This document shows, in pieces, positions 979-21,610 of a DNA stretch of 34,008 nt. The notes below the pieces were generated by a model. That model did no database searches. It was not told the origin of the DNA and was given only the letters and a program-made list of their open reading frames with translations. Location of the stretch: positions 1-34,008 of the forward strand of contig JALVTH010000040.1 in NCBI GenBank assembly GCA_027036015.1. Direction: 5' to 3'. Every line of letters starts with the position of its first letter. Position 1 is the first letter of the stretch. The position numbers were made by a program, and so were the translations under genes. The DNA is from Campylobacteraceae bacterium (lineage in GTDB: Bacteria > Campylobacterota > Campylobacteria > Campylobacterales > Sulfurovaceae).

Positions 979-1242
979 ATGCAACTTGACGTAAAAAAAG
1001 CAATTTTTCTTTTGGCAATTTTAACCTTTTTCTTGCTTATAAAAGTATACGTTGCTAATCAAATCTATTATTTAAGTCGGGATATCCAAAAAATGTTAGT
1101 TAAAATTGATGCCCTCAAAGAAGAACACAACATTTTAATGCTCAAAACGCAAAAATTGCAATTTCAAAATACCGTAACCAATTCACTTTTTATCTATCAA
1201 AACCCTCAAGAAGAAAAAGAATACATAGAGGATGAGAATTGA
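979..1242 (+). CDS. FtsL-like small bitopic membrane protein
   Basis: An 87-residue protein with a short cytoplasmic start, one membrane helix at about residues 8-27 (AIFLLAILTFFLLIKVYVAN), then a helical, heptad-like stretch at about 30-65 and an acidic tail. This is the topology of FtsL, the single-pass divisome protein that pairs with FtsB through a coiled coil. Position directly after rsmH is the classical ftsL locus. FtsL diverges too far in sequence for a firm name, so the call rests on size, topology and position. The stop codon overlaps the start of the following RND gene (TTGA), implying translational coupling. Confidence 0.6.
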   Translation: MQLDVKKAIFLLAILTFFLLIKVYVANQIYYLSRDIQKMLVKIDALKEEHNILMLKTQKLQFQNTVTNSLFIYQNPQEEKEYIEDEN

Positions 1243-4200
1243 TTCGAAAATTCATTACTTTTGCGGTTGAAAAGGCAATATTAAATCATATTCTTTTTCT
1301 TTTAATGTTTATAATGGCGATTTTTGCCTATAAATCAATTCCAAAAGAGCTTTTTCCACCAGCCGAGCTTGATATTATTACAATTAGAGGAGCTTATAGC
1401 GGTGCAAGTGGGGAAGTTCTTGATCAAATGGCCGTTATTCCTTTGGAGGAGGATTTAAAAAATGTCGCAGGCATAGATAGAATCGATAGCGTAATTAAAA
1501 ATGGCTCATTTTTAATTACTTTAGAGCTTAAAGAACATACAAATCCTCAACAAGTATTAAATGATGTTAAAGATATTATTACTAATCATCGTCAAGATTG
1601 GCCAAGCGATATGAATGAACCAGTTGCCAAAGTTTTAGTGCATCAATTTCCCCTGCTTCTTATTGCAGTCTCTGGAGATGTTCCAAAAGAAAAGCTGCTA
1701 AAAGCTGCAAAAGAGTTAAAAAATCGACTTAGCCAAATTAAAGATTTAGGAACGATTGCAATTAGAGGCGATGCTTCTTATGAAGTAACGATTCAACTAA
1801 ACGAAGCAAAAATTGAAGCTTTAGGATTACCTCAAAATACTCTTTATCAAGCTATTTCTCAAATTAGCTCCATTTATCCAGCAGGAAGCTTTAAAAGTAA
1901 AGATGGCAAAATTTATCTCTCAAGCATTAATGGTCAAAAAGAGATAAAAAAACTGCAAAACTTAACCCTAAATGTTGGTGGTAAATTTATTCGTTTAAAT
2001 GATATTGCCTCCATTTCTTATGGTCTTGGCAAAGCAAAAGAGATATCCGATTTTAATGGAAAAGAGAATATCTCTTTAAATGTGACCAAACAAAAAAGCG
2101 GTAATGCCATTGAGCTAAGCAAAAAAATTAAAAAAATTTTACAAAATTTTCAAAAACACTATCCAAAAATTACCTTTAAAGTCTATACCGATACTTCCGT
2201 TTGGATTCGAAATAGAATTAATCTTGTAACTTCAAACATCTTTTTTGGACTTATTTTAGTCTTTCTTGCCATTTTTTTAAGCGTTAATTGGCAAATTTCT
2301 TTCGTTGTAGCTTTAGGAATTCCAACAAGCTTTTTTATAGGACTCATTACAGCAAAATATCTTGGCTATAGTATGAATATGCTCACAATGCTTGGAGCCT
2401 TGTTAGCTCTTGGAATGTTAGTTGATGAAGCAATAGTAGTAGCTGAAAATATCTTTCGCCACATTGAAATGGGCAAAACTCCAAAAGAAGCCGCAATTGA
2501 AGGCTCTATTGAGATGTTTCCAGCAGTGTTAACTGCAACCTCAACAACTATTTTTGCCTTTTTACCCTTGCTCTTAATGAGCGGTAAGATTGGAATTTTT
2601 ATCAAAGTTTTACCTGTTATGATTTCTATTTTGCTTTTAAGCTCCCTTTTTGAAGCCTTTTACTTTTTGCCACTCCATGCAAAAGAGCTTTTTACTTTTA
2701 AAAATCCTTCAAGTTCCATTAAAAAAGAGAGTCCATTTTGGCAAAAATTACAAAAAAAATATCAAAACTCTCTTCTAATACTTTTAAAAGAAAAAGTTTT
2801 AGTTGTAGCTTTGATGGTTACTTTTATTTTGGGCGCTACCGCTTATCTTTTAAAACAGAGCACCTTTGAACTGATGCCAAAATTTGATGCCCAACAAATC
2901 TATTTAAGTGGAAAAACAAGCATCAATAATACCTTAGAAGAGACAAAAAAAGAGATAATCCCCTTAGAACAAGCACTTTTAAAAGAGCTCAATTCAAGTG
3001 ACGTTTCTTCTATTACTTCAATTGTTGGAATTAAATTTAATCCAGACAATACTTTTGAAAGTGGAGAGCATCTTTTTCATATCTTTATTAACTTAAACGA
3101 GAGAAAGCCACAAAATTTTTTTGACAAATATATTAATCCAATCTTTTCACTTGAATACGATAACTCAAACATGAAGCGCCAAAAAAGTGCTTTTGAGATC
3201 TTAGAGCAGGCAAAAAAGATTCTTAATCGCTTTAAAAACACCAAAAATGAAAAAGGAGAAAAAATCTTTAAAGATTTAACCATTTTTGTTCCTCAAGCTG
3301 GTATTGTCAAACATGACATTGAATTAAGCATTGTTGATGATGGCACTAAAAATGTTGACTTAGCTATTGCAACAATAATAAAAAAACTTCATGAAATTGG
3401 AAATCTTATTGGAATCTCTACCAATAAAAAACTTGGCCCAAAAGAGATAAAATTACAAATTAATTCTTATGGTCAAAAGCTTGGCTTTAGTGAAGCTTAT
3501 TTAATTCAAGCTTTGCAAGGACTCTTTTTAGAAACCTACTATAGTAAAATGCTCAATAAAGAAGGAGTTATTAATGTTATTCTTAAAGAAAAAAATAAAG
3601 ATAAAGCCATCGATTTAAAAAATATTCAAATTGCAACACCAGATGGTTCAAAATTTGTGGCTCTAAAAGAGATTACCAACTTTATTACCATTAAACGCCC
3701 TCTAACACTTTATAAAGAAAATGGCAAACGCATTTGGAATATTACAGCCCAAACTATTAAAGGCAAAAGCGTTGCTTCTAAAGTTATGCAAAAACTCAAA
3801 CCTACCATTGAAAAATTAAGAAAGCAAGGCTATAAAATTATCATTAAAGGCGAAGCCAAAGAAAATGCCAAAGTAATTCGAGAAATGAGTGAAGCTGCAA
3901 TTTTAGCAATCTTTTTAATTTTTATTGCTCTTGTTTTAATGTTTGATTCATTAATTCTTTCTCTTATTACCTTAAGTGTTATTCCACTTTCAATTTTAGG
4001 AGCTCTTTTTGGCACCAAAATAATGGGGCTCAATCTCACAATGCCAGGACTCATGGGAATTGTAGGACTTGCTGGAGTTGTTGTAAATGATGCAATTATA
4101 ATGCTTGATTTTATTAAAACAAGTATAAACTATAACGATTTGGCAAAAAAAGCCTCAACAAGAATTAGACCTATTATGCTAACTTCTATTACAACTCTTT

Positions 4201-4373
4201 TAGGACTTTCTACTTTAATTTTCTTTGCAAGTGGGCAAGCGTTGGTTATTCAGCCAATGGCTGTTTCGCTTGGATTTGGACTTGCTTGGGCAACGATTTT
4301 AAATTTAATTTTTGTGCCTCTTCTTTTTGCACTCATTTATAAAATAAAGGCAAAAAATGAAACGACTTTATAA
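1239..4373 (+). CDS. RND-family efflux transporter permease (full length)
   Basis: A 1044-residue inner-membrane proton-driven exporter of the AcrB/CzcA superfamily. The twelve-helix layout is visible: TM1 near residues 15-32, a large periplasmic loop, TM2-6 at about 330-480, TM7 near 518, a second large loop, and TM8-12 at about 885-1035. The TM4 relay motif reads LGMLVDEAIVVAEN with D396 and E397, against the usual DD or DA. TM10 reads GVVVNDAIIMLDF, with N950-D951 where AcrB has a lysine. The start is TTG, overlapping the stop of the FtsL-like gene, with AGAGGATGAG upstream. No adaptor or outer-membrane partner gene is adjacent, so it may share partners encoded elsewhere or export lipid or hydrophobic cargo. 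The substrate is unknown. Confidence 0.88.
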   Translation: MIRKFITFAVEKAILNHILFLLMFIMAIFAYKSIPKELFPPAELDIITIRGAYSGASGEVLDQMAVIPLEEDLKNVAGIDRIDSVIKNGSFLITLELKEHTNPQQVLNDVKDIITNHRQDWPSDMNEPVAKVLVHQFPLLLIAVSGDVPKEKLLKAAKELKNRLSQIKDLGTIAIRGDASYEVTIQLNEAKIEALGLPQNTLYQAISQISSIYPAGSFKSKDGKIYLSSINGQKEIKKLQNLTLNVGGKFIRLNDIASISYGLGKAKEISDFNGKENISLNVTKQKSGNAIELSKKIKKILQNFQKHYPKITFKVYTDTSVWIRNRINLVTSNIFFGLILVFLAIFLSVNWQISFVVALGIPTSFFIGLITAKYLGYSMNMLTMLGALLALGMLVDEAIVVAENIFRHIEMGKTPKEAAIEGSIEMFPAVLTATSTTIFAFLPLLLMSGKIGIFIKVLPVMISILLLSSLFEAFYFLPLHAKELFTFKNPSSSIKKESPFWQKLQKKYQNSLLILLKEKVLVVALMVTFILGATAYLLKQSTFELMPKFDAQQIYLSGKTSINNTLEETKKEIIPLEQALLKELNSSDVSSITSIVGIKFNPDNTFESGEHLFHIFINLNERKPQNFFDKYINPIFSLEYDNSNMKRQKSAFEILEQAKKILNRFKNTKNEKGEKIFKDLTIFVPQAGIVKHDIELSIVDDGTKNVDLAIATIIKKLHEIGNLIGISTNKKLGPKEIKLQINSYGQKLGFSEAYLIQALQGLFLETYYSKMLNKEGVINVILKEKNKDKAIDLKNIQIATPDGSKFVALKEITNFITIKRPLTLYKENGKRIWNITAQTIKGKSVASKVMQKLKPTIEKLRKQGYKIIIKGEAKENAKVIREMSEAAILAIFLIFIALVLMFDSLILSLITLSVIPLSILGALFGTKIMGLNLTMPGLMGIVGLAGVVVNDAIIMLDFIKTSINYNDLAKKASTRIRPIMLTSITTLLGLSTLIFFASGQALVIQPMAVSLGFGLAWATILNLIFVPLLFALIYKIKAKNETTL

Positions 4374-5019
4374 TGCAATGCAATTAAAAAAACTCTATAC
4401 TCTCAAAAGTCTTGGAGTCAACTTTATTAAACCTCTCAAAGAATTTGAAAAAGATGAATTACCTCTTCCAAACGATTTAAATGCTTTACGAAAAATTGTA
4501 AACAATTGCCATTTATGTGAACTAAGCAAAACGAGAAAACACGTCGTTTTTGGAGAAGGTAATCCTAATGCAACACTTATGTTTGTTGGCGAAGGACCAG
4601 GAGCAAGCGAAGATGAACAAGGCCGCCCTTTTGTAGGACGTGCTGGAATGCTTTTAACAAAAATGATTGAAAATGTTTTGTTAATAAAAAGAAGCAAAGT
4701 CTACATTGCCAACATCGTTAAATGCCGCCCACCAAATAATAGAACTCCTCTTCCAACAGAAGCTTTAACTTGCCGCCCTTATCTTTTTAAACAAATAGAA
4801 ATAATAAAGCCAAAAATCATCGTTGCTCTTGGCTCAACGGCTTATCATTATTTAACAAACGATACAAAGCCTATTTCAAAGGTAAGAGGAAGCATCATTG
4901 ATATGAAAGAGTTTAAACTTATACCAACTTATCATCCAAGTTTCTTACTTCGAAATCCTTCGGCTAAAAAAGAAGCTTATGTTGATATGCTTCTTGTTAA
5001 AAAGCTCTTAGGCAGTTAA
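4357..5019 (+). CDS. uracil-DNA glycosylase, family 4 (Fe-S)
   Basis: Excises uracil from DNA as the first step of base-excision repair. The 220-residue protein has an N-terminal extension of about 40 residues, then four cysteines in the family 4/5 [4Fe-4S] pattern: C51 and C54 (NCHLC), C123 (VKCRPP) and C139 (TCRPY). Motif A reads GEGPGASEDE (78-87), followed by GRPFVGRAG, and the second active-site motif is HPSFLLR (193-199). Family 4 enzymes are typical of thermophiles and of many bacteria. The gene overlaps the end of the RND gene by 17 bases, with AAAGG before its ATG. Its 3' end overlaps the convergent minus-strand gene by 12 bases. Confidence 0.93.
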   Translation: MKRLYNAMQLKKLYTLKSLGVNFIKPLKEFEKDELPLPNDLNALRKIVNNCHLCELSKTRKHVVFGEGNPNATLMFVGEGPGASEDEQGRPFVGRAGMLLTKMIENVLLIKRSKVYIANIVKCRPPNNRTPLPTEALTCRPYLFKQIEIIKPKIIVALGSTAYHYLTNDTKPISKVRGSIIDMKEFKLIPTYHPSFLLRNPSAKKEAYVDMLLVKKLLGS

Positions 5020-9524: not shown

Positions 9525-12339
9525 ATGGGAATGAATCGACGCGATTTTATTAAAGCCTCTGCAGCCGCCACAGCAGCTGCAGCAGTTGGTATTTCGGTCC
9601 CCGAAGAAGCAAAAGCAGCCGCTAAAGAAGCAGAAGCAGGATGGAGATGGGATAAAGCTCCTTGCCGCTTTTGTGGAACCGGATGCGGAATTATGTTAGC
9701 AGTAAAAGATGGAAAAATTGTTGCTGTAAAAGGTGACCCAGCAGCTCCAGTTAACAGAGGATTAAACTGCATTAAGGGTTATTTTAACGCAAAAATTATG
9801 TATGGTGCCGATAGACTCACTCAACCACTTATGAGAGTGAATGAAAAAGGTGAATTTGATAAAAATGGTAAATTTAAACCAGTCTCTTGGAAAAGAGCTT
9901 TTGATGAGATGGAAAAACAAATCAAAAGAGCTCTAAAAGAGAGTGGTCCAGAAGGTGTTGCAGTATTTGCTTCAGGGCAATATACTATTATGGAAGGGTA
10001 TGCCGCCCAAAAAATGATGAAAGCAGGTTTCCGCTCTAATGCGATTGACCCGAATGCAAGACACTGTATGGCAAGTGCAGTTGTAGGATTTTATCAAACA
10101 TTTGGTATCGATGAGCCAAGTGGGTGCTATGATGATATTGAACTTACTGATACTATTGTGGTATGGGGTTCAAATATGGCAGAAATGCACCCAATTCTTT
10201 GGTCAAGATGTACTGATAGAAAATTGAGTGATCCAGATCGTGTAAAAGTAGTAAACTTACAAACTTATACACACAGAACCTGCGATTTAGAGTGACTTTA
10301 CAATCATTTTCCGTCCACAAACAGATTTAGCAATTTGGAACTATATTGCTCATGAAATTGTCTATAACCATCCAGAAGCAATTGATTGGGATTTTGTTAA
10401 AAAACACATCGTTTTTGCAGCAGGTCCAGTTAATCTTGGTTATGGTATGAGAAGAGCAGGAGAAAAATCACTCAAAGATGGACTCTATAGCGATAAAGAG
10501 ATGGAAATTATCAAAAAAGAGATGGCAAAAGAAGTTTCATCGCTTGAAGCACCAGCCCTCAAACCGTATGGCTATAAAGAGGGTGATGTGATGAAAAATA
10601 GAGGTGGAACATTAGCCCACTGGATTATCAGCTTTGAAGATTACAAAAAATCACTTGAGCCATATACACTTGATTATGTAGCAAAATTGGCAAAAGGTGA
10701 TCCAGACGAACCGCTTGAAGAGTTTAAGAAAAAACTTAAAAAATTAGCCCAGCTTTACATTGAAAAAGATAGAAAAGTAGTAAGCTTTTGGACAATGGGT
10801 ATGAACCAACACACACGCGGTTCTTGGGATAATACATTGGCTTATAATGTTCATTTCTTGCTTAATAAACAAGCAAAACCAGGCTCTGGGGCATTCTCAC
10901 TAACTGGTCAACCAAGTGCTTGTGGTACAGCAAGAGAAGTTGGAACATTTACTCACCGCTTACCAGCAGATATGATGGTAAAAAATCCTAAACACAGAGC
11001 CATTGCCGAAAAACGCTGGAGAATTCCAGAAGGAACACTCAATCCAGTTGGTAAACAACACATTGTTGCAATCCACAGGGGCTTAGAAGATGGACTTATT
11101 AAATTTGCGTGGGTAAATGTTTGTAATGCTTTCCAAGATACAGCAAATGCAAACCACTGGATTAAAGCAGCAAGAAAAAAAGATTGCTTTATAGTAACCT
11201 CTGATGGATATCCTGGAATTTCAGCAATGGTATCTGATTTGGTACTTCCTAGTGCAATGATTTATGAAAAATGGGGAGCATATGGAAATGCTGAGAGAAG
11301 AACACAACATTGGAGACAACAAGTATTGCCAGTTGGGCAAGCAATGAGTGATACTTGGCAATGGGTAGAACTCTCTAAACGTTTTAAAGTTAAAGATGTA
11401 TGGGGTGAATATCCACCAAGTGGACCACGTAAAAAACCACTTCCAAGCGTAATTGAAGCAGCCAAAAAAATGGGATATAGCGAAGATACAACAATGTATG
11501 AAATTTTATTTGCTAATGAAGAGGCAAAAAAATATACCCTTGATGATCCAGTTGCTAAAGGTTTTGATGATACTGATAGTAAAGGTGATAGCAGAAAAGT
11601 TATTGGAAGTGATGGAAAAGAGTGGAAAGGTTATGGCTTTTTTATCCATAAATATCTCTTTGAAGAGTATGCAAGCTTTGGTAGAGGCCATGGACACGAT
11701 TTAGCTCCATTTGATGTATATCATAAAGTAAGAGGTCTCAAATGGCCAGTTGTTAATGGTAAAGAAACATTCTGGCGCTTTAATGTTAAATATGACCCAT
11801 ATGCAGCAAAAGCAGCAAAAGAGGCTGGACTAACAGATTTTGCATTTTATGGACCTTTGGCTAAAAAACTTTATCCAGGAAGCCTTACAAAACCAGATAA
11901 AACTAAGCCAAAAATTGATCTTAAAAACAAAGCAAAAATCTTTGCAAGACCATATATGGATCCACCAGAAATGCCAGATAAAGAGTATGATACATGGCTA
12001 TGTACTGGACGCGTGCTTGAGCATTGGCATAGCGGAACAATGACAATGAGAGTTCCAGAACTCTTTAGAGCAATGCCAGAAGCGCTTTGTTATATGCATC
12101 CAGAAGATGCGAAAAAACGAGGCGTAAAACGTGGTGAACTTGTATGGATTGAATCAAGACGTGGGAAAGTAAAAGCAAGGGTAGAGACAAGAGGAAGAAA
12201 CAGACCACCACGTGGACTTGTATTTGTGCCATGGTTTGATGAAAAAGTATTTATTAACAAAGTTACTCTTGATGCAACTTGTCCGATGAGTAAACAAACA
12301 GATTACAAAAAATGTGCAGTAAAAATTTATAAAGCATAA
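9525..12339 (+). CDS. napA: periplasmic nitrate reductase catalytic subunit NapA, frame broken at 10293
   Basis: Molybdenum bis-MGD enzyme that reduces nitrate to nitrite in the periplasm. The N-terminal part has a Tat signal (NRRDFIK, residues 4-10, then an Ala-rich core), the [4Fe-4S] cysteines C47, C50, C54 and C82, and the Mo-ligand motif NARHCMAS with C181. After residue 256 (THRTCDLE) the frame hits TGA at 10293. The homologous sequence resumes one base later as [15 protein letters not shown] and stays open to TAA at 12339, giving 256 + 681 = 937 residues, a normal NapA length. Removing one base restores the protein exactly. As written, only a 256-residue fragment would be made; the first ATG of the remainder is at 10447. 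No other damage is seen, so sequencing error, a recent mutation or recoding are all possible. Confidence 0.93.
10288..10296 (+). other. +1 frameshift site in napA
   Basis: The upstream frame reads GAT TTA GAG TGA. The downstream frame has TAG at 10288-10290 and is open from AGT GAC TTT onward, so the shift must occur in the window TTAGAGTGAC. The stop context UGA-C is the weak one used at prfB-type +1 shifts, but GAG cannot re-pair well on AGU and there is no Shine-Dalgarno-like stimulator just upstream. There is no homopolymer that would favour slippage. Confidence 0.85.
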
Positions 12340-17432: not shown

Positions 17433-19166
17433 TTATTTAGTAATTGAAATATTTGATTTGTCGTGATGGTAAGGAATCTCATCATCAAAATTCATAGCTT
17501 TTGTATTATCAAGCAATACTGGAACAAAAATTAACGAAACAAAAACAGCTGCAACTGTTCCAGAAATGAGTGCAACTCCAAGTCCACCAAAAATTGGATC
17601 ACTTGCAAGCAAAGCTGAGCCTAAAATAATAGCAATTGCAGTTAAAAAGATTGGTTTAGCTCTTGTAGCAGAAGCAATTGCAATTGCACGGCGCTTTTTA
17701 ATGCCGTGAGCTTCCATTAGTGCTTTTGCAAAGTCAATTAAAAGCAGTGAGTTTCTTGAACTAATTCCCATGAGTGCAATAAATCCAATAAGACTTGTTG
17801 CTGTTAAAAAGAATGTATCTCTTGTTACCAAATCTGCAACCCAGTGCCCTACAATTACTCCAATAATAGATAAAAAGCTTCCAGCAAGCACAATACCACT
17901 AAGTGTATAACTCTTATAATAAATTACCAAAAGTAAGAAAATCAAAACCAATGCACCAATAAATGCTCCACCTAAATCTCTAAAAGTATCAAGTGTTACT
18001 TTCATCTCTCCATCCCAGCGAAGCAAAAATTTCTCACCTGTTTTTTTATCGGTTAAATGCAAATCAAACATATAAGTGCTCATTCCTGGCTCTTTTTCTA
18101 CTTTATAGCCATGCTTACTAAAGTATTTAATCATTCTATCTCTTGCTTCTAAAAGTGGATAAACTTGAGACTCTTCATCTGCTTCTGCAATAACATTAAT
18201 CATTCTTCGTAAGTCTTTATGCATAATCATTGGATTTGATGGTACTTCTTTAATATCAACAACTTCAGTTAAAGGAACAAGCATACCCATTCTATTCATA
18301 AGATGCATAGATGAAAGTTTATCTTTTAAGGCTTCTAATGATTTGGTATTAAATTTTTTCGTTTGTGGATCTAAAACCAAAAAGATATTAACTTGATCTG
18401 GCTCTTTTGCTGAATTTTTATGAGCAATCACCATTCCTTCAAACGCTAAATAGATAATTTTATTTACCTGATCAACCGTTAATCCACTTTTTGCAATTTT
18501 ATCTTTATTTGGAATTAACTCATACTTTTTATAAATATCATCAGCCATAATATCAACATCTACAACTTTTGGCACTTTTGATAAAATATTTGCAACTTGG
18601 AAAGAGAGTTCTCTAATTTTTTTCAAATTATCTCCAGTTACTTCTACAACGAGCGATGCAAGTGTTGGAGGACCTGCTGGTTGTTCAATAAATTTAATTA
18701 CCGTTCCTTTTACTAAAGGCTCACACTTTTTCTTAACAATTGGGCGAAGGCGATGCACCATCATATAACTTGTCTCATCTCTTTCGTGCTTATCAGTTAA
18801 GTTTACAGCAATTTCAGCAACATTTTCGCTATTTTTCATACCAGAGCCCTTTACAAGCCCTGCATAATCAAGAGGAATCCCCATTCCAGCATAAAGCTCC
18901 ATATTAATAATCTCTTTTTCATCTTTAAGACTATCTATGACACATTGAGCCACTTTTTTAGTTTGTTCAATGGAACTTCCAGTTGGTGTATCAATATAGA
19001 TAGAAAAAGTATTATCACTTTTTCCTGGAAGCATTTTTGCCTTTACAATTTTTGTTGGCAACATCATTATTGAGCCAACAAGCGCTAAAAGCGTAATAAG
19101 CACAACTAACATTTTATTCTTTTTACTATCTAAAATCTTATAAACAAACTCTTCAAATCGTTTCAT
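17433..19166 (-). CDS. RND efflux transporter, C-terminal half
   Basis: A 577-residue protein corresponding to the second half of an RND pump: TM7 at about 18-36, one large periplasmic loop, and TM8-12 from about 400 onward. The TM10 relay motif reads [14 protein letters not shown] with R471 and D478, where AcrB has a lysine. It begins at an ATG overlapping the stop of the N-terminal half (ATGA) with its own ribosome site AAGGAG, so it is a designed separate gene and not a nonsense fragment. It must pair with the upstream half, giving a product of 1121 residues in two chains. The substrate is unknown; the DA motif in the partner resembles heavy-metal and HAE-type pumps. Confidence 0.9.
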
Positions 19167-20797
19167 GAAGGATTCTCCTTCTTATGTTTTTGATGGTGAT
19201 GATGATGTTTGTGCACTGGCTTTTTAAGCAATTTATAACTTAAATAAGGCGTAAAGATATAAGCTACTACTAAAGAAGCAATAAGTGCTACTGGAACGTT
19301 TAGTGGAATTGGCTTCATAAATGCTCCCATCATTCCACCAACAAAAAGCATTGGAATCATTGTCATAATAATTGCAAGTGTTGCAATATTTGTTGGTGGT
19401 CCAATTTCATCAGTAGCCTCTACCAATAATACGTCCATTGGTTTCTCTTCACTTTCATGTGAGTGTAAGTGTCTATGAATATTTTCAATCACAATAATTG
19501 CTGCATCAACCAAAAGCCCCAGTGAAAGCAAAAAGGCAAAGAGTGTAATCCTATTAATTGTTTGGCCACCAATAAATGCAATAAAAAGCGTAATTGCTAA
19601 AATTGCTGGAACTGTAAAAGTTACAATCATTGCCTCTTTAAATCCAAGTGCAAAAATAAGCATTACAGCAATAATTGCAATTGTAATTAAAAGATGATCT
19701 ACAAGCTCATTAACTGCATCATTTGCTCTTTTCCCATAATCTCTGGTAATTACAAATCCAATTCCTTCTTTATGCAATTGCTCTTTCATAGAATTTAAAA
19801 GCTTTATCACATCATGTGCAACAAATACAGCATTTGTTCCTTTAAGTTTTGCAACAGTTAGAGTAATTTGCTCTTTTAGTGGAGAAAATTTTGCTTTTCT
19901 AAGTTCTTCTAAATTTTTTCCTTTTTTGAAAGTTATGTAAGTTTTTTTAAAGTTTTGAAAATCAATTCCACGTGTAACTTTTGCTACATCTTTTAAATAG
20001 ATTGGTGAACCCATATAACTTGCAACAATAACATTTTTTAAATCATCAACACTCTCAATTGCATTTTTTACACCAAACATCAAAAGTTTTTTCGTTTTGG
20101 TTCTCCCTTTTACATCTGGCACATCAACAGCAATTGATTGTACCGCTTTCATAATCTGACCAAGTGAAAGGTGATATCCAGATAGTTTATTTAAATCAAC
20201 TTCTACGTTAAATTGAGGTTTATGAGCACCTACTAAAGTTGTTTTTGCAACATTTTTTACAGCATTAACTTTTTGCTGAATCTTTCTTGTAATTTTAAAA
20301 AGCTTTTCATAATTAACTTTCGTCCCCTTTATAGGATAAAAAGCTACTGTTAAAATTGGAATATCAATATCAATATCAAATGGTTTTACTAAAGGCTGCA
20401 TAACACCTTTTGGCATCTTATCCATATTTTGCATTACTTTATCATAAAGCTTTAAGTTTGCATCTTCTCTTCGCTCTCCAATTTTATAGACAACATTTAC
20501 AATTCCAACATTATTCATCGCCATTCCATAAATATGCTTAATCCCTTGAATTTCTCTTAACTTTCTCTCAAGTGGATTAACAATAACATTTTCAACTTCT
20601 TTTGGAGAGGCTCCAGGCATTGGAACTATGACTGATCCTCCACTAATTGCAATTTGTGGATCTTCTTCTCTTGGCATAATCTCTAAAGAGATAAATCCAA
20701 GAATTAAAATTGCAATTCCTAAAACTGATGTTAAAGGATTCGTTAAAAATCCTTTGGCTAATTTTCCAGCCCAATCTTTTGGCGTATAATTTACCAT
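19163..20797 (-). CDS. RND efflux transporter, N-terminal half, with His-rich tail
   Basis: A 544-residue protein equal to the first half of an RND pump: TM1 at about 22-40, a periplasmic loop with two porter-like subdomains (EEDPQIAISG near 44, PMPGASPKEVENVI near 59), and TM2-6 at about 366-525. TM4 reads GLLVDAAIIVIEN with relay residue D431. The loop after TM4 has alternating histidines (H441, H443, H445, H447), and the protein ends with VHKHHHHHQKH (528-538), both on the cytoplasmic side, which suggests metal binding. AAAGGG precedes the ATG, 12 bases after the adaptor gene. The break lies in the cytoplasmic linker between TM6 and TM7. Confidence 0.9.
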   Translation of the reverse strand: MVNYTPKDWAGKLAKGFLTNPLTSVLGIAILILGFISLEIMPREEDPQIAISGGSVIVPMPGASPKEVENVIVNPLERKLREIQGIKHIYGMAMNNVGIVNVVYKIGERREDANLKLYDKVMQNMDKMPKGVMQPLVKPFDIDIDIPILTVAFYPIKGTKVNYEKLFKITRKIQQKVNAVKNVAKTTLVGAHKPQFNVEVDLNKLSGYHLSLGQIMKAVQSIAVDVPDVKGRTKTKKLLMFGVKNAIESVDDLKNVIVASYMGSPIYLKDVAKVTRGIDFQNFKKTYITFKKGKNLEELRKAKFSPLKEQITLTVAKLKGTNAVFVAHDVIKLLNSMKEQLHKEGIGFVITRDYGKRANDAVNELVDHLLITIAIIAVMLIFALGFKEAMIVTFTVPAILAITLFIAFIGGQTINRITLFAFLLSLGLLVDAAIIVIENIHRHLHSHESEEKPMDVLLVEATDEIGPPTNIATLAIIMTMIPMLFVGGMMGAFMKPIPLNVPVALIASLVVAYIFTPYLSYKLLKKPVHKHHHHHQKHKKENPS

Positions 20798-20809: not shown

Positions 20810-21610
20810 TTAGTTTTTAGGAATAATGACTTTGGTATACATTCCAGGAAATACAGTTTTGCCTTTATGATCAAAACTTATTTTTATTTTAAATTTATGC
20901 GTCATTGGATTAGAACTTGGAATAATTGCACTAATTTTTCCTTCTTCTTTTAATCCTATTGAAGGAATTTCAATTTGCACTTTTTTACCAAGAGGAGCAT
21001 ATTTTAACTCTTGCTCACTAAGCTCAGTTACCACTCTTAATTTACTTAAATCAGTTAAAACTAAAACTGGCATTCCAGGAATTTGAATTTCTCCTTCATT
21101 TGCCATTTTTCTAACAATAACTCCATCATTTGGAGCTTTTATTTTTAAATATTTATATTGTTCTAAAACTTGTTTTTTCTTAGCCTCAGCTTGTTTAACT
21201 TGCTTTTTTGCAATTCTTACCATATCACGCATATTTTTCGCTGCAAGCTCCATATTTTCAAGCTCAAATTTTGAAACCATTCCTTTTTTATAAAGTCTTT
21301 TATGGCGTGCTAAATTAATTAAAACATTATTTAATTGATTTTCATTCATTTGTAATGCAAGTTGCGCTTGAGAAATTGCCAAATCAACTTGTGTTACCAT
21401 TGCATCAATCTCTTTAGAATCAATCTCATAAAGCAAATCACCTTTTTTGACCATATCTCCTTCACTAACTTTCATATTTTTAATAAAGCCCATAAAACGG
21501 CTTGTTATCATTTTTTGATTATCTGATTGAACGGTTCCACTAAGCTCTATAACATCTTTAGCTACCAGCACACTTGTTAAAATCGTAAAAAAAAGAATAA
21601 TCTTTTTCAT
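20810..21610 (-). CDS. efflux periplasmic adaptor (membrane fusion protein)
   Basis: Bridges the RND pump and the outer-membrane channel. The 266-residue protein has a Sec signal (KKIILFFTILTSVLVA), a lipoyl-like half (GFIKNMKVSEGDMVKKGDLLYEID), a coiled-coil hairpin at about 75-155, the second lipoyl half (KIKAPNDGVIVRKMANEGE near 160) and a beta-barrel domain (LRVVTELSEQELKYAPLGK onward). There is no lipobox cysteine. It is shorter than AcrA because the membrane-proximal domain is nearly absent, as in some CusB- or HlyD-like adaptors. The start has AAGGAG and follows the TolC-like gene by nine bases. Confidence 0.92.
   Translation of the reverse strand: MKKIILFFTILTSVLVAKDVIELSGTVQSDNQKMITSRFMGFIKNMKVSEGDMVKKGDLLYEIDSKEIDAMVTQVDLAISQAQLALQMNENQLNNVLINLARHKRLYKKGMVSKFELENMELAAKNMRDMVRIAKKQVKQAEAKKKQVLEQYKYLKIKAPNDGVIVRKMANEGEIQIPGMPVLVLTDLSKLRVVTELSEQELKYAPLGKKVQIEIPSIGLKEEGKISAIIPSSNPMTHKFKIKISFDHKGKTVFPGMYTKVIIPKN

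Follow-up and report, generated by a model that had tools for sequence, protein, structure and literature searches.

RND efflux pumps are regarded as single-chain proteins whose TM1 to TM6 and TM7 to TM12 move together. Two described systems may be compared with a pump in two pieces: MdtB and MdtC of Escherichia coli, which arose by duplication according to the available text of PMC7015380, and SecD and SecF, which the accessible part of PMC8277102 describes as separate RND-like 6-TM neighbors in place of one 12-TM chain. As to the adaptors of such pumps, the available text of PMC4446572 confines the membrane-proximal domain to adaptors that serve RND and ABC pumps whose periplasmic parts are prominent, and says that it docks on RND pumps; PMC13328181, in the portion available, treats this domain as standard for RND adaptors; and in the same parts of both sources EmrA, the adaptor of an MFS pump, ends without it. 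No paper on a split RND efflux permease was found in the literature searched, a search that left out most subscription papers and does not show absence from print.

Here, we analyze a locus from a member of the Sulfurovaceae (phylum Campylobacterota) in which the N-terminal and C-terminal halves of an RND permease (N-half and C-half) are encoded by separate genes. It lies within the window, i.e., the whole stretch of DNA of 34,008 nucleotides that was analyzed (Table 1). The link between the two sets of six TM helices was cut here once and has stayed that way across much of the phylum.

Table 1. Coordinates of the split-pump operon and its signals in the window
Feature	Position	Strand	Basis
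TolC-family outer-membrane channel, 468 aa	21620-23026	-	PF02321 OEP, TIGR01844
Periplasmic adaptor (MFP), 266 aa, without C-terminal membrane-proximal domain and without lipobox	20810-21610	-	HlyD_D23, RND_mfp
RND N-half, 544 aa: TM1, first periplasmic part, TM2-6, D431, His-rich disordered C-terminal tail	19163-20797	-	PF00873 11-499; six long helices; AcrB 1-502
RND C-half, 577 aa: TM7, second periplasmic part, TM8-12, R471, R502, T509	17433-19166	-	PF00873 515-1017; AcrB 524-1034
ATGA overlap: N-half stop 19163-19165 / C-half ATG 19166-19164	19163-19166	-	Sequence; overlap or abutment in 107/125 loci
AAGGAG, C-half ribosome-binding site, 8 nt 5' of ATG	19175-19180	-	Sequence; core in 101/125 loci

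Gene organization and annotation

The original prediction, an RND pump encoded as two genes joined by an ATGA overlap with a proper ribosome-binding site for the second, was borne out in each of these respects. Both reading frames, the overlap, and the ribosome-binding site (AAGGAG ahead of the C-half start) are as described, and the PF00873 matches score 248.4 bits for the N-half and 165.3 bits for the C-half against a cutoff of 28. Transcription on the minus strand runs from the TolC-family channel through the adaptor and the N-half to the C-half, and the genes for adaptor and channel adjoin those of the pump, as in a tripartite system, in an order that is conserved. The permease itself is not the one polypeptide of ~1000 residues expected of an RND pump but the product of two genes, both in the window and in 153 genomes. 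The three further RND genes in the same genome (G000, 79 contigs) are single chains with frames of 1018, 1028, and 1045 aa, which makes the split particular to the pump at 17433-20797. In the public records examined, the two halves each bear the name of a complete permease subunit, hence pump counts made by gene name are too high.

Several other features of these loci may be recorded. Elsewhere in the window, rsmH and a gene for a family-4 uracil-DNA glycosylase flank a single-chain RND gene (1239-4373, plus strand; 1044 aa) that has no adjoining adaptor. After TM6, the N-half ends in a His-rich tail (19166-19214, minus strand) with 7 His among its last 18 residues; across 125 split loci, the last 20 residues of the N-half contain a median of 3 His, with at least 4 in 50 loci. 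The tail could bind metal. In Sulfurovum mangrovi (L207, 16534-18143), two overlapping neighbor genes each carry the annotation cation:proton antiporter and may be a further case of a transporter encoded in fragments.

Genomic neighborhood and substrate

The gene order serA-TolC-MFP-N-C-efp recurs among the split loci; the window has it, and S. mangrovi shows it with named genes. Of 56 split loci, 26 have serA no more than four genes upstream, 46 have a TolC gene within three genes, and 45 have the adaptor directly upstream; efp is next in 22 of 62. The 11 loci without an MFP gene directly upstream include three in which the gene caller chose a long opposite-strand ORF (L188, L196, and L200) and three with the adaptor on the other strand (L191, L193, and L234). 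These last three, in which the adaptor lies downstream, group with L174 and L178 in a second split-pump clade whose C-halves are longer, up to 646 aa. An RND C-part of 646 aa is present in genome G462 (L231, 4916-6854, plus strand), beside a full RND of 1011 aa.

Housekeeping neighbors such as serA and efp reveal little about the substrate. Against TIGR00914, the CusA/CzcA heavy-metal RND model, the halves score 147.5 and 61.7 bits versus 701.45, a cutoff meant for the whole protein. Export of sulfur compounds (sulfide, polysulfide, or sulfane sulfur), which would be compatible with a two-subunit pump, is possible but doubtful. ArsR/SmtB regulators are encoded near rhodanese-type or FAD/NAD(P) oxidoreductase genes in 3 of the 6 fused plasmid relatives examined, and 5 of 56 split loci encode an SQR-like protein no more than four genes upstream, a raw count with no chance control in bacteria in which SQR genes are common. 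However, the other 51 loci have no SQR-like neighbor, nor does the window, and the SQR-like proteins score far under the NCBIfam cutoff. RND pumps are listed among the genes linked to sulfane-sulfur-sensing ArsR repressors in the available text of PMC12423496. We regard sulfur-compound export as a lead, not a finding.

Cut site, fold, and proton relay

The cut had been placed at the TM6-TM7 linker, and this is where the alignment puts it: it falls cleanly in the cytoplasmic linker, with little gained or lost compared to fused relatives, and the models of the halves match the N-terminal and C-terminal portions of AcrB. The N-half model, with long helices at 22-40, 354-384, 386-409, 416-444, 454-489, and 500-523, fits 2j8s_A with a Z of 22.2 and an rmsd of 8.0 over 466 residues, and the C-half model fits 6zo5_A, as far as the end of its ordered chain, with a Z of 22.0 and an rmsd of 4.3 over 460 residues (rmsd 3.5 to 3.6 against other AcrB structures); the aligned AcrB ranges (Table 1) mark the first and last matched residue only. 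The single-chain models are of middling quality (mean pLDDT 73.5 and 72.8, pTM 0.57). By C-half sequence, the nearest solved relatives are MexK (9xwg) and the RND transporter 6vej, which we take to be TriC.

An RND proton relay has an Asp in TM4, a basic residue in TM10, and Arg/Thr in TM11. These places are occupied by D431, R471, R502, and T509, none of which varies in the alignment, either among the 64 split rows or among the 13 fused ones (77/77). We take their AcrB counterparts to be D407, K940, R971, and T978, respectively, and assume the corresponding roles. The residue at the K940 position is Arg in the split pump (R471), as it is in MexK and 6vej. The second Asp of AcrB's pair corresponds to A432, which is Ala in 57 and Asp in 7 of the 64 split rows; because of this replacement, the proton path may differ from that of AcrB. 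D431, R471, and D478 had all been proposed as relay residues. All three are found at these numbers and the first two stand, but D478, itself invariant (77/77 rows), is not a classical relay residue; it aligns with an AcrB Glu that presumably has no relay role.

With D431 in the N-half and R471, R502, and T509 in the C-half, the relay would be divided between two proteins, and neither half should then work alone. This division, and the fact that the N and C genes are always adjacent and co-inherited, makes it highly improbable that the halves act separately, each forming an oligomer with a function of its own, even though there is a parallel in SecD and SecF, which the available text of PMC8277102 describes as separate RND-like proteins; these nonetheless act together.

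Gene coupling and translation signals

A search for adjacent half-RND pairs in Campylobacterota, suggested in the original prediction, yielded 125 distinct loci holding both halves, and in all 125 the N gene lies directly 5' of the C gene. The overlap is of 4 or 1 nt in most loci, and in the 18 loci in which the genes neither overlap nor abut the gap is 1 to 30 nt. ATG was assigned as the start codon of the C-half in 113 loci and GTG in 12, and a Shine-Dalgarno core is present upstream of it in 101 of 125, compared to 506 of 4869 (10.4%) control windows inside the N gene. Taken together, these signals indicate that N and C are two proteins made by coupled translation, not by recoding. A frameshift or readthrough joining the halves into one chain might be suspected from the short overlaps, but it is scarcely credible: relative to N, the C gene is in frame 2 in 102 loci, in frame 1 in 9, and in frame 0 behind a stop in 14, a mixture that no single shift could serve, and the C-half has a start codon of its own in addition to the ribosome-binding core.

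Conservation of the split in Campylobacterota

The C-half was detected in all 11 genera of the Sulfurovaceae (162 of 175 genomes, E <= 1e-30) and in 42 of the 68 genera of the phylum sample (163 of 397 genomes, E <= 1e-20). Among the 163 matching genomes, all of which were assigned (136 from the main phylum search rows and 27 from further locus inspection), it stands alone in 153 and is a portion of a fused gene in 10. The stand-alone frames are of 546 to 676 aa, except for one of 412 aa that is cut by a contig end (G509), and the fused genes, of 1077 to 1181 aa, belong to nine genomes of family f4 (perhaps Nautiliaceae, as a guess) and to G526 of family f10. The split is old and fixed across many families of the phylum. 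Its reading frames remain open at identities down to 46 to 49%. The two-half pump is probably functional today.

The split recurs in 153 of 163 matching genomes with start codon and ribosome-binding site retained, which makes it virtually impossible that it stems from faulty sequencing or assembly or from a gene decaying into a pseudogene. Frame faults do occur in the window, where a frame change near 10293-10295 interrupts napA, and isolated broken RND genes do occur in relatives, e.g., L232 in G447, but the L232 break looks quite different, as the close relatives of that gene have single frames of ~1030 to 1042 aa. Because of those relatives, L232 was also discarded as a candidate second split family, and G156, which had looked like an exception with an odd open frame of 892 aa, proved to be split like the others. 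The napA gene (window 9525-12339, plus strand) reads as NapA 1-253 in ORF 9525-10295 and as NapA 286-830 in the frame from 10393, with a stop near 10293-10295 between the two; the interruption could be genuine or reflect a local error.

Origin of the split

The split was mapped on a tree, as had also been proposed, of 84 rows (64 split, 13 fused, and 7 other RNDs) taken from every fourth related locus of the search plus individually added loci, with L038 (contig edge) and L208 (duplicate) left out. The split rows form one clade with an SH-aLRT of 100 and a long stem. Nearest to it are the fused pumps of f4 and G526, then those of Polaromonas and Roseibium (joined at 84), and further out those of Pseudanabaena, Flammeovirga, Novosphingobium, and Paracoccus, in a midpoint-rooted drawing whose outgroup branches are very long and were flagged by the program. 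Separate N and C trees without outgroups recover the split bipartition with local supports of 0.958 and 0.917. Distances among N-halves correlate with those among C-halves with an r of 0.96 (2080 pairs, which are not independent). A single split clade, whose sister group consists of fused relatives within the phylum and which itself lies inside a fused subfamily, indicates that one fission of a single-chain ancestor accounts for the split clade; repeated fission is unneeded, as one origin suffices. Close fused relatives, coupled with an erroneous stop between the halves, had been named as evidence that would speak against the split. The fused relatives that bear on this are only 37 to 44% identical and fall outside the split clade, and their placement indicates that they represent the ancestral state rather than an error.

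The fused pump of G526 (L221, G526:C61:1-12000, frame 1680-4911) sits before efp and a DJ-1-family gene, the usual place of split pumps, and its adaptor retains the membrane-proximal domain. It is 59 to 61% identical to the f4 fused pumps and ~42% identical to split pumps, and the genus-mate G363 is split (L227). From these comparisons, replacement in place by a transferred fused pump seems likelier than re-fusion.

A shortened adaptor

The adaptors beside split pumps stop right after the beta-barrel, only 3 to 13 residues following, and do not have the four domains of an RND-type adaptor, the membrane-proximal domain being absent in 50 of 50. In contrast, those beside fused pumps continue for another 74 to 87 residues after the barrel and keep the domain in 11 of 11; both counts leave out MFPs whose 3' end lies at a contig edge. 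The domain-profile match of the fused-side adaptors is to be expected, as the profile was built from those rows and three E. coli adaptors, and length provides the independent evidence. Two other MFPs, in L182 and L185, retain the domain. No lipobox-like motif was found in the first 40 residues of any of the 50 split-side adaptors, no free-standing membrane-proximal-domain ORF near the split operons, and no pump insertion replacing the lost domain, the notable clade-specific insertion being only of 8 residues near C271.

The window adaptor is 33 to 43% identical to the f4 adaptors and a true relative of these, hence loss of the membrane-proximal domain most likely took place on the lineage of the split pumps. 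An exclusive link between the split and adaptor shortening was considered and is weakened by L001 (G000:C62) of the same genome, where a single-chain RND of 1018 aa has an adaptor of 240 aa that also ends after the barrel, i.e., short adaptors also accompany unsplit pumps. Two losses on one branch are one coincidence, not many.

Discussion

The locus very probably encodes a complete tripartite efflux system whose RND pump consists of two different half-subunits after one ancestral fission, likely assembled as N3C3 and driven by protons. In this reading, a single-chain ancestor belonging to a distinct RND subfamily was cut once in the short cytoplasmic TM6-TM7 linker, early in the history of Campylobacterota, and the halves have since been made from translationally coupled genes and passed on as a pair. 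The active pump would most likely be a trimer of N-C pairs, with three N-halves and three C-halves replacing the AcrB-like trimer, from which the substrate would exit via the shortened adaptor and then the TolC-family channel, whose genes lie just upstream. Counting against a two-subunit pump are the fit of the N-half to AcrB at an rmsd of 8.0 only, the replacement of the second Asp, and an adaptor without its docking domain.

More tentatively, and with less likelihood than not in our judgment, the system may have an architecture of its own, in which the N3C3 core is held together non-covalently only and the adaptor, having lost the membrane-proximal domain on the same branch, must dock differently. 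If so, genomes with two split operons could swap halves, mixing N and C specificities. In any event, the need for a covalent linker and for the membrane-proximal domain of the adaptor becomes directly testable.

Comparison with known systems

Single-chain RND pumps of the AcrB kind share with the split pump the half folds, the 2 x 6 TM layout, the relay columns, and the tripartite partners; they differ in being encoded by one gene instead of two, and in that the adaptor of the split pump is without the membrane-proximal domain. The direct relatives are the pumps of the fused subfamily (f4, G526, Polaromonas, Roseibium, Pseudanabaena, Flammeovirga, Novosphingobium, and Paracoccus), with C-half identities of 29 to 44% and the same invariant relay residues, which differ in forming one chain of ~1060 to 1180 aa and in having adaptors that keep the domain (11/11).

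MdtB and MdtC are likewise two different gene products in one inner-membrane pump, but each of them is full-length whereas the genes of the split pump encode complementary halves of one chain. The likeness to SecD/SecF that had been pointed out holds for the layout, two neighboring 6-TM proteins, but not for kinship. SecD and SecF are a different family, while both halves of the split pump match PF00873 only in Pfam and have TolC and adaptor partners; the SecDF models match the N-half at 1.9e-6 and 2.6e-5, far behind RND permeases, and do not match the C-half at E <= 0.001. Finally, the split-pump adaptor resembles EmrA in ending without a membrane-proximal domain; the pump of EmrA is without a large periplasmic part, whereas the split RND retains its periplasmic parts.
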